DNA from: Ignavibacteriota bacterium
Lineage (GTDB): Bacteria; Bacteroidota; Ignavibacteria; Ignavibacteriales; Melioribacteraceae
Assembly: GCA_002698995.1 (NCBI GenBank)
Contig: PAAX01000010.1
Coordinates: forward strand, 62,001-126,000
DNA: 64,000 bases
Reading direction: 5' to 3'
This document shows positions 10,616 to 42,340 of this stretch, piece after piece. Numbering within the stretch: position 1 is the stretch's first letter; each line of letters opens with the position of its first letter. A model generated the notes under the pieces. The model did not search any database. It saw only the letters and a program-made list of their open reading frames with translations, and was not told where the DNA came from. The translations under genes and the position numbers were made by a program.

Positions 10616-12634
10616 TTACTTTAGAAGCATCATTTTCTTTGTTGCAACAAAATTGTTTCCGTCAATTCCGTTTGCTTCTACAGTATAAAGATAAACACCA
10701 CTTGTTAAATTAGATGCATTAAATTCAACTGAATGTCTTCCTGCATCAAAAGCAGCATTTAAAATTTGAGCGACCTGCTGACCTAATGTATTATATAATT
10801 TAATAGTTACATTAGCTTGAGTAGGCACAGCAAATTTAATTGTTGTTGATGGGTTGAATGGATTTGGATAGTTTTGCTCTAAAGCAAATTCTGTCGGAGT
10901 AATAACTTCAACTTCAACTACATTTGAATATTCAAATGAACCATCAAAATCTACTTGTTTTAATCTGTAGAAATATGTTCCATTATCAACATTTCCATCA
11001 ACATAAGAATATTCAGCTTTTTCTGAGGTTGTACCTTTACCTTCAACAAAAGCTATTCTTTGGAAAGTTTTGTTATCAGCACTTCTTTCAATTTCAAAAC
11101 CGGAGTTGTTAACTTCAGTTGCAGTTGCCCAATCTAGTAATACACCTTCTGCATTTGAAGTAGCAGCAAAACTTGTTAACTCAACTGGAATAACTTCGCC
11201 TGCAGTTAACATAACATCATCAATTGCAATTCTCCACATATCAGCTGCAGAATACGCATAGAAGCCGATATAATATGTACCGGTAGCTGTAACAGTAAAA
11301 TCGTCATCAGCAGCTTCATAAGCAGTATTTGTATTTCCTGCATGATCTGATAACATTGCAATCGGATTTCCTTCTGAATCATATACATGAACGCTAAAAT
11401 CTTCCGGATATGTACCAGATGCAACTCTATAATTGTAAGCAAAGTTATAAGTTGTTCCAGCATTAAATGTAAATGGACCGAACATTGCATGGTCATCTTT
11501 TGGTGCAGATCCGTTATAAGAAATATTTAACGAATTTGAACCTGATAACGGATAACTTGCAGAAACATTCCAAGTAACTCCATCATTATTAACATCAACA
11601 ACTGTTAAATCAGTTGGAGCAGTTTCAAAATCCCAAATACCTAAAATTGCAGCAGGATCATAAGCCAATCCTGTTGCTTCATTTGAAGGATCTGATTCGC
11701 TAGAACCTTCAACAGATGTTACAGTATAAGTATGTTCAACACCATATGACATACCATCATCAACAAATGACATATCTGCTGTATTACCGATTAAAGAACC
11801 ATTTCTGTATACATTATAACTATCAACTGCTTTCGCAACAGAAACATCAAAAGAATATTTGTCTACTCTTTGTTTGTATGAATCTGATGATTCGCTTTCA
11901 ACTCTTTTTAATGGATGTAAAGTAGTTCTTCCTGCTCTAAATCCTTGTAAATCTTTTGGATCGTCAAAAGAAACAACCCAATCAGAACCTGTTGCTAATC
12001 CAGTTACAGCAAAATCATCAAATGTAATATTGAATTGATCTGTAGAACCATTGTGAACAACAGCTATGTAAACAGATTGATTTGCGTAAGCAGATAAATC
12101 AACTGATCTTCCGACAAACGCACCCCAAGCTGGTGCAGGTAAAGTTTCAGAAAAAACTTCTGTAAAACTGGCAGGCGAAGCATCTGTAGTAGAAACCATA
12201 ACCTTATAAGTCTCCTTTGCCCAATCAGCATCGGAACCACCCACATTAAATGTAAAGTCAGGATTTGCTCCGAGACTTAATTGTGGAGTAATTAACCAGT
12301 TATCCGGAGTTAATGCGGAGAAAGTAGCATTATCATAAGAAAAACTTACAACAGCATAATCACCGCCGGTAACAAAATCCCATGCATCCGGTGCACCTAA
12401 AACAAACCAAGTATGACCGTCAGAGTCATTATCAATATTCTGCCAGGTACCTGGAATTGCACCACTTTCAAAACCTTCATTAAAACCACTTGGATCTAAT
12501 GGAGCCGACCAAGATAGTCCTACTTCACCTATACCACCATAAGTTGCCTGTAAATTAGTTGGCGGATATGGTTGTGCTTGAGTTGTAATAGCTATTAAAC
12601 CAACTATTACCAAAATGGAAAAAAGTCTCCTCAT
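10616..12634 (-). CDS. T9SS-exported choice-of-anchor J / cleaved-adhesin-like protein
   Basis: A 672-residue secreted protein. The signal peptide is MRRLFSILVIVGLIAITTQAQ. It is followed by a fibronectin III-like start (PPTNLQATYGGIGEVGLSWSAP), a cleaved-adhesin/choice-of-anchor J domain (about residues 50-210, with WLITPQLSL and AYANQSVYIAVVHNG), a second FnIII-like stretch around 260-325, and another jellyroll-like lectin-type domain (about 330-480). After a linker PVELTSFAATS comes a T9SS type A sorting domain (EQNYPNPFNPSTTIKF, about 580-672, ending KKMMLLK). It should be exported by the type IX system and anchored at the cell surface. The start is well supported by AAGGAGGTC just before ATG. 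A TATAAT-like box at 12688-12693 could serve as its own promoter. The ligand is unknown. Confidence 0.88.
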   Translation of the reverse strand: MRRLFSILVIVGLIAITTQAQPYPPTNLQATYGGIGEVGLSWSAPLDPSGFNEGFESGAIPGTWQNIDNDSDGHTWFVLGAPDAWDFVTGGDYAVVSFSYDNATFSALTPDNWLITPQLSLGANPDFTFNVGGSDADWAKETYKVMVSTTDASPASFTEVFSETLPAPAWGAFVGRSVDLSAYANQSVYIAVVHNGSTDQFNITFDDFAVTGLATGSDWVVSFDDPKDLQGFRAGRTTLHPLKRVESESSDSYKQRVDKYSFDVSVAKAVDSYNVYRNGSLIGNTADMSFVDDGMSYGVEHTYTVTSVEGSSESDPSNEATGLAYDPAAILGIWDFETAPTDLTVVDVNNDGVTWNVSASYPLSGSNSLNISYNGSAPKDDHAMFGPFTFNAGTTYNFAYNYRVASGTYPEDFSVHVYDSEGNPIAMLSDHAGNTNTAYEAADDDFTVTATGTYYIGFYAYSAADMWRIAIDDVMLTAGEVIPVELTSFAATSNAEGVLLDWATATEVNNSGFEIERSADNKTFQRIAFVEGKGTTSEKAEYSYVDGNVDNGTYFYRLKQVDFDGSFEYSNVVEVEVITPTEFALEQNYPNPFNPSTTIKFAVPTQANVTIKLYNTLGQQVAQILNAAFDAGRHSVEFNASNLTSGVYLYTVEANGIDGNNFVATKKMMLLK

Positions 12635-40171: not shown

Positions 40172-42340
40172 CTATTTCACCAGCATCATCTTACGAATCT
40201 GACTAAAACTTCCCGCCTGTATTTTATAGATATACATTCCGGTTGAAAGACCTGAAGCATCAAATGTTACTTCATAATTACCGGCAGATTTTTGTTCATT
40301 AACCAATGTAGCAACTTCGTTACCGAGAATATCATATACTTTTAAAGTAACATTAACATCGTCATTTCGAGAAGACGAAGTCGATGAGAAATCTTGAAGA
40401 TTTCTCCCTACAGTCGAAATGACAGATGGAATTGAATATTTTATTGTTGTTGTCGGATTAAAAGGATTTGGATAATTCTGTTCAAGACTAAAATTATGAA
40501 CTGTTATATCATCTTCTACATCAACAGTAGGAGATATAGTAAAAAATCCATCGCTGGTATCTCTTATACTAAAGTTTGATTCATCAAGAATCAGAATTAA
40601 ACATTCATCAGAATCAATATTTGGAGTATTCCATCTATAAACACCAAATTGAGATTCAGCAGATTGAGTAACAAAACCCCAGCTACTGCCGCCGTCAGTG
40701 CTGTATCCAATTCTAACCGATTGTACTTTTTGTGAATTCCATTTTATACTAAATCCAGCTTCTGATGTTATTGTTTCCCCGCCATTAGGAGAAATTATTG
40801 CAATACTTGGCTGAGAGTTAGGATGATAAATATCAAGACGATTAAGATTAAAATTGCCCGCTTCAATAAAAAGTCTTAAAGTATGAACTCCTGCTGAAAG
40901 ATTGAAATCAGAGGAAGTAACAGTTTCCCAAGTCTGCCATCCGCCGGTATTGGGAACATTGATGGTTGTTGAAAGATCATTACCGTCAAGCATTAACTTG
41001 AAAGCACCGGTTGTAACTTCTGAAGCAACTCTAGCTTCTAAATTGTAAATACCGGTTTCTTTTACATCAATTATATAATCAAGCCATTCTCCGGCTTCAG
41101 TCCAGCCAATATTAAAACCTTCTCCAAAATCTTCACATTGTTGAATGCCAACATCATCATTAACTCTGTATACTCCTCCCTCATTGATAGAAGTATTATC
41201 AAAATATGCTTCGCCATTTGCACCTTGATTAAAATTTTCGGCTTCAATTACACCTGGAATATATGATGGATGTCCGGTATATGGAGAGACAACACAATCA
41301 CTACCTGCTTTAACAACAACATTAAACGAAGTTCCTGTATAACCATCAGCGGTATATGCTTTAGCAGTAATATTATAGCATCCCGGATTAACATTTTCCC
41401 AAATCATTTCATAAGGCTCGGCATAAGCAATTCCAATTTTAGCTCCACCTTGGTAAAATTCAACCTTTTCAATTTCACCATCGTAATTGACTGAAGCACT
41501 AATCGGAATATCACTATACGGAGTAACTATTCCGTTATTAATTGGAGTTGTAATTGCAACATCAGGAATAACTGTAGCATCTTTATAAACTCTAACATAA
41601 TCAACATACATTTTTTGAGGAAATACTGTAGTTCCATCCGGGAATCCGGGCCAATTTCCACCAACTGCAACATTAAGAAGAAGAAATTGCTCTTTGTGCA
41701 ATTCACTTAATTCAGCAGGAGTAATATCAATTTGATGATATCGCAAATTATCTACGTACCATTCTATTTTAGTTGGTGTCCATACAACTGAAAAGGTATG
41801 AAAATCTGCATCAAATGTTGAACCGCTTAAAGTATAGCTTCCGCCAAATTTAGCATGAGTTCCATTATTAGACCAATGAACTGTACCATATGCAACATTT
41901 GGCTGATGACCAAGAAGTTCTAAAATATCTATTTCACCACAAGCCGGCCAGCCAACCGAATTAATATTTTCACCCAAAGTCCAAAATGCCGGCCATATCC
42001 CTTGTCCATATGGAGTTTTTATTCTTGCTTCAATTTTGCCATAAAGAAACGATTTCTTTCCTTTGGTTATTAATCTTGCAGAAGTATAACTTCTTCCGCC
42101 AAAATTTTCTTTTAGTGCTTGAATAACCAAATTTCCATTTTCAATATAAGCATTGGTATCTCTATCGGTATAAAACTGCAGCTCATTATTTCCCCATCCT
42201 CCGCCGCCAGTTTCTCTCGTCCAAACTGAAGGATCTAAAACATCTCCATTAAACTCATCCGACCAAAGCAATTGATATGTTTGAGATAATAATGGTGAGG
42301 TTAATAATAATAAAACAAATATTACGCTTAATCTTTTCAT
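40172..42340 (-). CDS. T9SS-exported GH16 beta-1,3-glucanase (laminarinase) with Ig-like and CBM6 domains
   Basis: A 722-residue modular enzyme: signal peptide (MKRLSVIFVLLLLTSPLLSQ), then GH16 (about 22-255) with the catalytic EIDILE at residues 136-141 (nucleophile E136, acid/base E141), preceded by WPAFW. An Ig-like domain of the glycanase linker type (about 258-345, VEFYQGGAKIG) and a CBM6 (about 360-480, IPGVIEAENF, NLNRLDIY) follow, then another beta domain (about 485-600) and the sorting domain (EQNYPNPFNPTTTIKY, terminal KMMLVK). The sequence fits GH16_3 endo-beta-1,3-glucanases. The sorting domain carries a 63-base palindromic insertion (see separate feature) adding 21 residues. Surface-exported first attack on laminarin-like glucan is likely. 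Confidence 0.94.
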   Translation of the reverse strand: MKRLSVIFVLLLLTSPLLSQTYQLLWSDEFNGDVLDPSVWTRETGGGGWGNNELQFYTDRDTNAYIENGNLVIQALKENFGGRSYTSARLITKGKKSFLYGKIEARIKTPYGQGIWPAFWTLGENINSVGWPACGEIDILELLGHQPNVAYGTVHWSNNGTHAKFGGSYTLSGSTFDADFHTFSVVWTPTKIEWYVDNLRYHQIDITPAELSELHKEQFLLLNVAVGGNWPGFPDGTTVFPQKMYVDYVRVYKDATVIPDVAITTPINNGIVTPYSDIPISASVNYDGEIEKVEFYQGGAKIGIAYAEPYEMIWENVNPGCYNITAKAYTADGYTGTSFNVVVKAGSDCVVSPYTGHPSYIPGVIEAENFNQGANGEAYFDNTSINEGGVYRVNDDVGIQQCEDFGEGFNIGWTEAGEWLDYIIDVKETGIYNLEARVASEVTTGAFKLMLDGNDLSTTINVPNTGGWQTWETVTSSDFNLSAGVHTLRLFIEAGNFNLNRLDIYHPNSQPSIAIISPNGGETITSEAGFSIKWNSQKVQSVRIGYSTDGGSSWGFVTQSAESQFGVYRWNTPNIDSDECLILILDESNFSIRDTSDGFFTISPTVDVEDDITVHNFSLEQNYPNPFNPTTTIKYSIPSVISTVGRNLQDFSSTSSSRNDDVNVTLKVYDILGNEVATLVNEQKSAGNYEVTFDASGLSTGMYIYKIQAGSFSQIRKMMLVK
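40361..40423. repeat. Palindromic repeat element (63 bp) inserted in frame in the GH16 sorting domain
   Basis: A 63-base unit with perfect ten-base terminal inverted repeats (GTCATTTCGA at 40361-40370, TCGAAATGAC at 40414-40423) and an inner near-palindrome around AGAAATCTTGAAGATTTCT. It resembles the GTCATTTCGA-ended intergenic repeats scattered through many Bacteroidota genomes (from general knowledge, not searched). Here it lies in coding sequence; 63 is a multiple of three and the element begins and ends on codon boundaries of the GH16 gene. Confidence 0.85.

Follow-up and report, generated by a model that had tools for sequence, protein, structure and literature searches.

How does a short palindromic DNA element come to lie in frame inside the secretion signal of a bacterial glycosidase, and is such a position exceptional? 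The question is raised by a gene for a secreted GH16 family protein in the window, i.e. the whole stretch of 64,000 nucleotides from an Ignavibacteriota bacterium that was analysed here, in which a 63-bp unit lies within the T9SS sorting domain (Table 1). A previous sequence-only reading of the window had described a unit with 10-base perfect terminal inverted repeats and an inner palindrome, which replaces nothing and adds exactly 21 codons, and both descriptions were borne out. The terminal repeats GTCATTTCGA and TCGAAATGAC show a complementarity of 100%, as do the arms of the inner 10+1+10 palindrome, GAGAAATCTT (40386-40395) and AAGATTTCTC (40397-40406). The unit is in phase with the open reading frame at 40172..42340 (minus strand) and yields the product VISTVGRNLQDFSSTSSSRND; one of its six frames is free of stop codons, and this is the frame in use. 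The loop consists of S + 21 residues + DVN, compared with four residues in canonical loops, which corresponds to a net gain of 21 codons. The element ends may resemble the native SIP codons (GTCATTCCG vs TCAATTCCA).

Table 1. Positions in the window of the host gene, its sorting domain, the palindromic element and the other sorting domains
Feature	Position	Strand	Basis
GH16 family secreted glycosidase gene, 722 aa (GH16, Big_7, CBM6/35, T9SS sorting domain)	40172..42340	-	Pfam PF00722, PF17957, PF03422, PF18962; TIGR04183
T9SS type A sorting domain with insert	40184..40474	-	PF18962 match aa 623-719; seven-strand Ig-like model
Beta3 strand and following turn (VTLKVYDILGNEV)	40313..40351	-	sequence; motif match to L-beta3-beta4 of P. 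gingivalis CTDs (PMC11285876); model strands E52-59, E65-74
Native loop residues 2-4 (Asp-Val-Asn)	40352..40360	-	element end 9 nt before Val codon of VTLKVYD
In-frame CGTC-type palindromic repeat, 63 bp, encodes VISTVGRNLQDFSSTSSSRND	40361..40423	-	repeat, frame and folding analyses; model loop
Terminal inverted repeat arm 1, GTCATTTCGA	40361..40370	.
Inner palindrome GAGAAATCTT-G-AAGATTTCTC	40386..40406	.
Terminal inverted repeat arm 2, TCGAAATGAC	40414..40423	.
Native loop residue 1 (Ser), left flank of insert	40424..40426	-	comparison with canonical 4-residue loops
Other sorting domain, canonical loop, no insert	10619..10870	-
Other sorting domain, canonical loop	13832..14068	-
Other sorting domain, canonical loop	35960..36196	-
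Other sorting domain (neighbouring gene), canonical loop	42354..42590	-

With regard to its type, the element carries the tag of the CGTC repeats, with CGTCATTTCGA at one end (C at 40360) and TGTCATTTCGA at the other; TGTC is a permitted variant of this tag (PMC3733652). In overall layout, the terminal arms together with the inner palindrome fit a dimer; the published CGTC unit has a stem of 8-9 bp, a loop of 4-5 nt and a CCA tail, with dimers arranged head to head (PMC3733652). As its ends read GTCAT, the element does not belong to the GTAG-tagged REPs that are mobilised by RAYT.

Copies of the element were sought by blast in the source genome (4.23 Mb, 36 contigs). A second full copy lies at C17:16341-16415, in the sorting domain of an unrelated protein, where it occupies the same loop and is read in the same frame, and a sister element of the GTCATTGC type occupies a third sorting domain. 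Partial copies also exist, several of them outside convincing ORFs, for example directly upstream of an apparent pheS. The element thus belongs to a family of palindromic repeats dispersed in the genome, as had been proposed. Its abundance is unlike that of CGTC-type REPs, which are high-copy and mostly extragenic: about 8 copies are recognisable in 4.23 Mb, three of them in sorting domains. The element is missing from the loops of GH16 homologues in four other genera (identity 50-54% over the full length), which indicates that the site was empty before the insertion; this comparison is one between genera, and at 50-54% identity the sorting domains are perhaps not strictly orthologous. The gene is uninterrupted in these homologues, and the insert is in frame, as with rickettsial palindromic elements (RPEs). 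One homologue (G036) has a different short insert of its own.

These comparisons bear on whether the 21 residues could be an ancient protein segment, i.e. the conserved linker of a sub-family that is palindromic by chance. Peptides such as RNLxDFSS..PRND do occur in the sorting domains of several genera. Nevertheless, the DNA is shared as well as the peptide, and it is palindromic: the families TTTCGA/TCGAAA and TTGCGA/TCGCAA differ in both arms jointly, as read by eye from the sequences, given that the MAFFT alignment of the elements misplaces the left arms and yields no pair counts. Diverged DNA under the same residues, or a lack of further copies, had been named in advance as grounds for abandoning the mobile-element reading; instead, distant sorting domains with related residues have near-identical palindromic DNA, and other copies exist, including copies outside ORFs. 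With homologues that lack the segment, this reading is already contradicted, and we regard it as extremely improbable.

The sorting domain that carries the insert scores above the cut-offs of both family models (TIGR04183, 31.3 vs 23 bits; PF18962, 42.5 vs 27 bits), and the TIGR04183 match begins only past the insert. A structure model built from nine window and related sequences predicts a seven-strand sandwich, in which the insert is disordered and links strand 2 to strand 3: residues 32-45 mostly have a pLDDT < 50, and the next strand is at about 92. The predicted arrangement, a disordered loop between confident strands, resembles that of RPEs, whose peptides are exposed at the surface and leave the fold undisturbed. 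Among the Ig-like fold matches of the model were the T9SS CTD structures 8qb1 and 8glk, none of the matches being at E <= 0.001.

By its motif, the segment VYDILGNEV, which follows the insert, is the counterpart of L-beta3-beta4 in P. gingivalis CTDs, an essential motif that in RgpB reads I-FDMNGRR-V (PMC11285876); the insert therefore lies just ahead of the motif and leaves it untouched. RgpB tolerates a gain of 8 residues in another CTD loop, L-beta5-beta6 (PMC11285876), and the CTD is removed by PorU on export in P. gingivalis (PMC4804311). By analogy, the sorting domain with the insert would still direct export, and in the Ignavibacteriota host it would likewise be cut off afterwards. The proposal that the element has been domesticated, in the sense of acquiring a function, finds no support.

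Elsewhere in the window, four more sorting domains all have the canonical loop without the element, as stated in the sequence-only reading, which considered a palindrome in this position unusual. This is true for genes in general but not for the beta2-beta3 loop, as a census of the source genome, which has roughly 140 sorting domains, shows. The sequences of nearly all of these domains were taken and 114 were fully parsed; the spacing is canonical in 94 of the 114, most having exactly four residues between '..SIP' and 'VTLKVYD'. CGTC-type or GTAG-type palindromes, intact or decayed, are present in about 15 of the roughly 140 domains, all of them at the beta2-beta3 loop: five are of the CGTC type (one heavily decayed) and ten of the GTAG type (six from one paralogous family and four others). 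The long domains gain their length at profile positions 16-19 of 79, or split at about 17/18, and the REP-encoded peptides begin 16-18 residues past PNP and nowhere else within the domain.

Two further observations concern regions upstream of sorting domains in this genome. GTAG palindromes of two subtypes occur in frame at one place of an upstream domain, in the context NNYGFEIQR-..VGTTHELSLQ..-WEKIGFVEG (L225, L226, L235 and L184; G000:C21:32049, C24:194063, C36:109, C1:568), which constitutes a second recurrent site. GTAG-derived peptides, VEMLRATS and VESLRATN, are also found between 'FEYSETIT' and 'LPTEFAL', just ahead of the sorting domain (L102 and L131; G000:C1:358, C24:193.8k).

The survey of the class Ignavibacteria, which comprised pattern searches of 391 genomes and 35 chosen genomes, showed that the window element is no lone oddity and exemplifies a phenomenon that recurs at the same loop across the class. 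At least ten families of repeats lie in frame in the beta2-beta3 loop, in genomes from seven families of the class (f1, f2, f3, f8, f13, f14 and f19). They include CGTC repeats of several subtypes, GTAG repeats, CCCCTC..GAGGGG and CCCCTTAAT.. hairpins and AACCTTGCAGG..CCTGCAAGGTT, and tandem GGAAAAT and GGTCGGA heptamers also fill the loop (G247, G205). The same or unrelated loop repeats occur in G046, G053, G002, G034, G230, G306, G001, G205, G247, G186, G231 and others; within the family of the source genome, G013 has 13 inserted domains, G046 has two, and the others have one or a few.

Several of these loci show additional features. Four domains that carry a loop repeat (L045, L178, L209 and L247) have another insert within the NPFNP motif (NPYGEAIPSGNPTT, SEAIPNGNLSTT, NPFSASGGSAFGGNPSTT and NPFSKRTGGNPTT), and in L209 (G064) two different palindromes, GTCATCCTTCGACAGGCTCAGGATGAC and GTCATGGTGAGC..ACCATGAC, lie in tandem in a single loop. 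At four G013 loci (L330, L331, L333 and L338), tandem 'AATTCTC'-type heptamers occur in another loop, before LPSGVYFY (FSIRNSQLPSG, WRIENSELPSG). One inserted sorting domain (L074 / L265, G013:C64) has a TGA stop within the element, and its cargo has probably lost export.

The diversity of loop fillers is relevant to the possibility that the palindrome is retained for a role in RNA or DNA, for example as a hairpin near the 3' end that acts on mRNA stability or translation, with the peptide as a by-product. The coding strand of the 63-bp unit does fold strongly (-20.8 kcal/mol, z = -3.3; 0 of 200 shuffles fold equally well), and REPs have been proposed as mRNA stabilisers in other bacteria (PMC3733652). 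Nevertheless, the hairpins have decayed in several loops (L156 and L120, z about 0; L044, -1.3), the window palindrome has no T run and is therefore not a terminator, an Rfam search of the region gave no credible match and none above threshold, and tandem heptamers occupy the same loop. Selection for the hairpin itself is accordingly very unlikely.

The positions of the element ends were compared across the class. Of 64 pattern matches, 23 (22-23, from f1 and f2) have the right end of the element exactly 9 nt ahead of the Val codon of VTLKVYD. A distance of 3 nt was seen in 19 cases, for the most part in f8. A single universal insertion position was rejected because the 3-nt peak is largely due to another hairpin family (f8), which is reversed. 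These preferred ends could be taken to suggest that the loop is an insertion target and not only a refuge, with a transposase or a single-strand process favouring its DNA (e.g. after ATTCC). The source genome encodes four Y1 transposases, and one RAYT-like ORF (NF047646, 64.4 bits, below the cut-off of 80) has GTAG REPs on both sides. This ORF (L219, G000:C31:260700-262100) is flanked by identical GTAGGGACAACTCATGAGTTGTCCCTAC palindromes, a third copy of which lies in frame in its own coding sequence (VGTTHELSLQ). Intact GTAG sites number 41 in the genome. The expectation of a RayT/TnpA-like REP transposase thus held in that a RAYT is present, and failed in that its associated repeats are of the GTAG type and not of the CGTC type of the window element, so that a Y1 transposase is available for the GTAG copies only. 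CGTC repeats have no known transposase (PMC3733652), the GTAG copies in the loop have variable ends, many unrelated kinds of repeat share the site, and copying between domains can also yield identical flanks. A true site preference therefore appears unlikely.

If the loop is not targeted, tolerance alone might suffice: repeats would insert at random everywhere and be visible here, given that the loop of a very numerous domain tolerates them. This would agree with the sharing of the site by unrelated families, tandem repeats included, and with the predicted disorder of the insert. The size of the excess was estimated in G230, a complete single-contig relative, from an evenly spaced, unbiased 1.2-Mb sample. 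The loop was canonical in 61 of 75 parsed domains, and all 12 domains with >=6 extra residues contained recognisable repeats. Loops, with 900 nt of native sequence, contained 12 repeats of the families concerned, and non-ORF DNA, where insertions are fully tolerated, contained 9 in 115.6 kb, a far higher density in loops that is biased by the choice of the families from loops; elsewhere in the sorting domains of the sample these families were absent. When repeat families were instead defined de novo, the loops showed a modest excess relative to non-ORF DNA, with four vs 0.87 expected (about five-fold, P = 0.012); the first such count is noisy, as the ORF mask and AT-rich k-mers inflate both classes. 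In G013, about 13 of about 15 element copies lie in the beta2-beta3 loop, a proportion to be read with the assembly in mind, which breaks at repeats, so that intergenic copies are perhaps missing. Simple tolerance fits poorly because other loops of the domain in the source genome (profile positions 52-55 and 66-68) vary by 3-8 residues yet hold no palindromes. That tolerance matters is certain, and an excess beyond it is likely, while true insertion targeting is unproven. As a complete account, we hold tolerance to be somewhat improbable.

The excess may be explained in large part by copying between domains, and not only by fresh insertion. Two G013 domains, L330 and L334, are 100% identical from inside the element rightwards (51 nt available) and only 63% identical on the left side, which places the joint inside the element and points to recombination between sorting domains. 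The CGTC-inserted domains of the source genome show a right-side similarity of 0.70-0.87, compared with an average of 0.66 plus or minus 0.09. Fresh insertion and copying thus probably both contribute.

Taken as a whole, the explanation that we favour, and consider probable, is that REP-like elements settle in a permissive loop of an export signal present in many copies, after which they are copied from domain to domain. A dimer-like CGTC-type palindrome, related to REPs and to the rickettsial RPE-4/6/7, would have been inserted without loss into the four-residue beta2-beta3 loop, in its one stop-free frame. Many repeat families would enter sorting domains, which number tens to hundreds per genome, and would persist where the added peptide does no more than extend a disordered loop on the surface, immediately ahead of the essential beta3/L-beta3-beta4 region, in a domain that in other species is cut off after export. 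The copies would subsequently spread among sorting domains via duplication and recombination. We infer the mechanism of insertion; the identity and frame of the repeat, the empty loops of the homologues, the recurrence at one loop, the disorder of the loop in the model and the one clear mosaic are direct results. Counting against this explanation, tandem heptamers share the loop with palindromes in G247 and G205, and a REP-specific mechanism is therefore not the whole story. A bolder version, in which the loop is a class-wide capture site where unrelated repeats are preferentially integrated or amplified beyond tolerance and serve as recombination joints that shuffle sorting-domain halves between cargo genes, is at present tentative and rather unlikely.

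These results imply that part of a protein export signal has repeatedly been built from repeat DNA. The loop amounts to a naturally replicated experiment in the conversion of selfish DNA into protein, and it marks a position in the T9SS export signal where 7 to about 30 extra residues are apparently accepted. They also explain one source of odd segments in sorting-domain proteins, which can mislead annotation and HMM scores, as in the TIGR04183 match of the GH16 protein.

In-frame palindromes as such are already known, as RPEs, WPEs and intragenic REPs (PMC3767692 and PMC3733652). We found no earlier description, in the literature searched, of one homologous export-signal loop that collects unrelated repeat families across a class, and the searches, most subscription journals being outside their scope, returned no REPs or palindromes linked to sorting domains or to the T9SS. 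Like the window element, the CGTC-tagged REPs (Di Nocera et al. 2013, PMC3733652) are GTCAT...ATGAC palindromes with no dedicated transposase, some of them intragenic; they are mostly head-to-head dimers, a layout that the window element may share. They differ in being reported mainly from intergenic DNA and diverse genes, with mostly alpha-proteobacterial families, and no recurrent site in a secretion signal was seen in the part of that article available. The GTAG-tagged REPs with RAYT (PMC3733652) have counterparts in the GTAG...CTAC palindromes and the flanked RAYT of the source genome, some of these palindromes lying in frame in the same loop, whereas the window element is of the CGTC type and is not mobilised by a known RAYT. 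With regard to T9SS CTDs, loop length is also known to vary, as in L-beta5-beta6 of RgpB (PMC11285876); the loop concerned here is L-beta2-beta3, and the available part of that article reports no repeat-derived loops.

The closest parallel is provided by Rickettsia RPE-4/6/7 (Ogata et al. 2000; PMC3767692), which are likewise short palindromes with ATGAC ends, lie in frame in genes, encode surface-exposed peptides and can be represented by different families at the same site of orthologues. For the latter situation in R. japonica, a hot spot and a common origin were considered not separable (PMC3767692); in the present case, the families that share the site are clearly different in sequence. 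The debate of hot spots versus one ancient insertion can thus be revisited in a single loop that is present in up to hundreds of copies per genome, with different families at the same place. Whereas RPEs occur in many unrelated genes, the repeats described here, from unrelated families, occupy one homologous loop of a multi-copy domain, both within a single genome and throughout the class.
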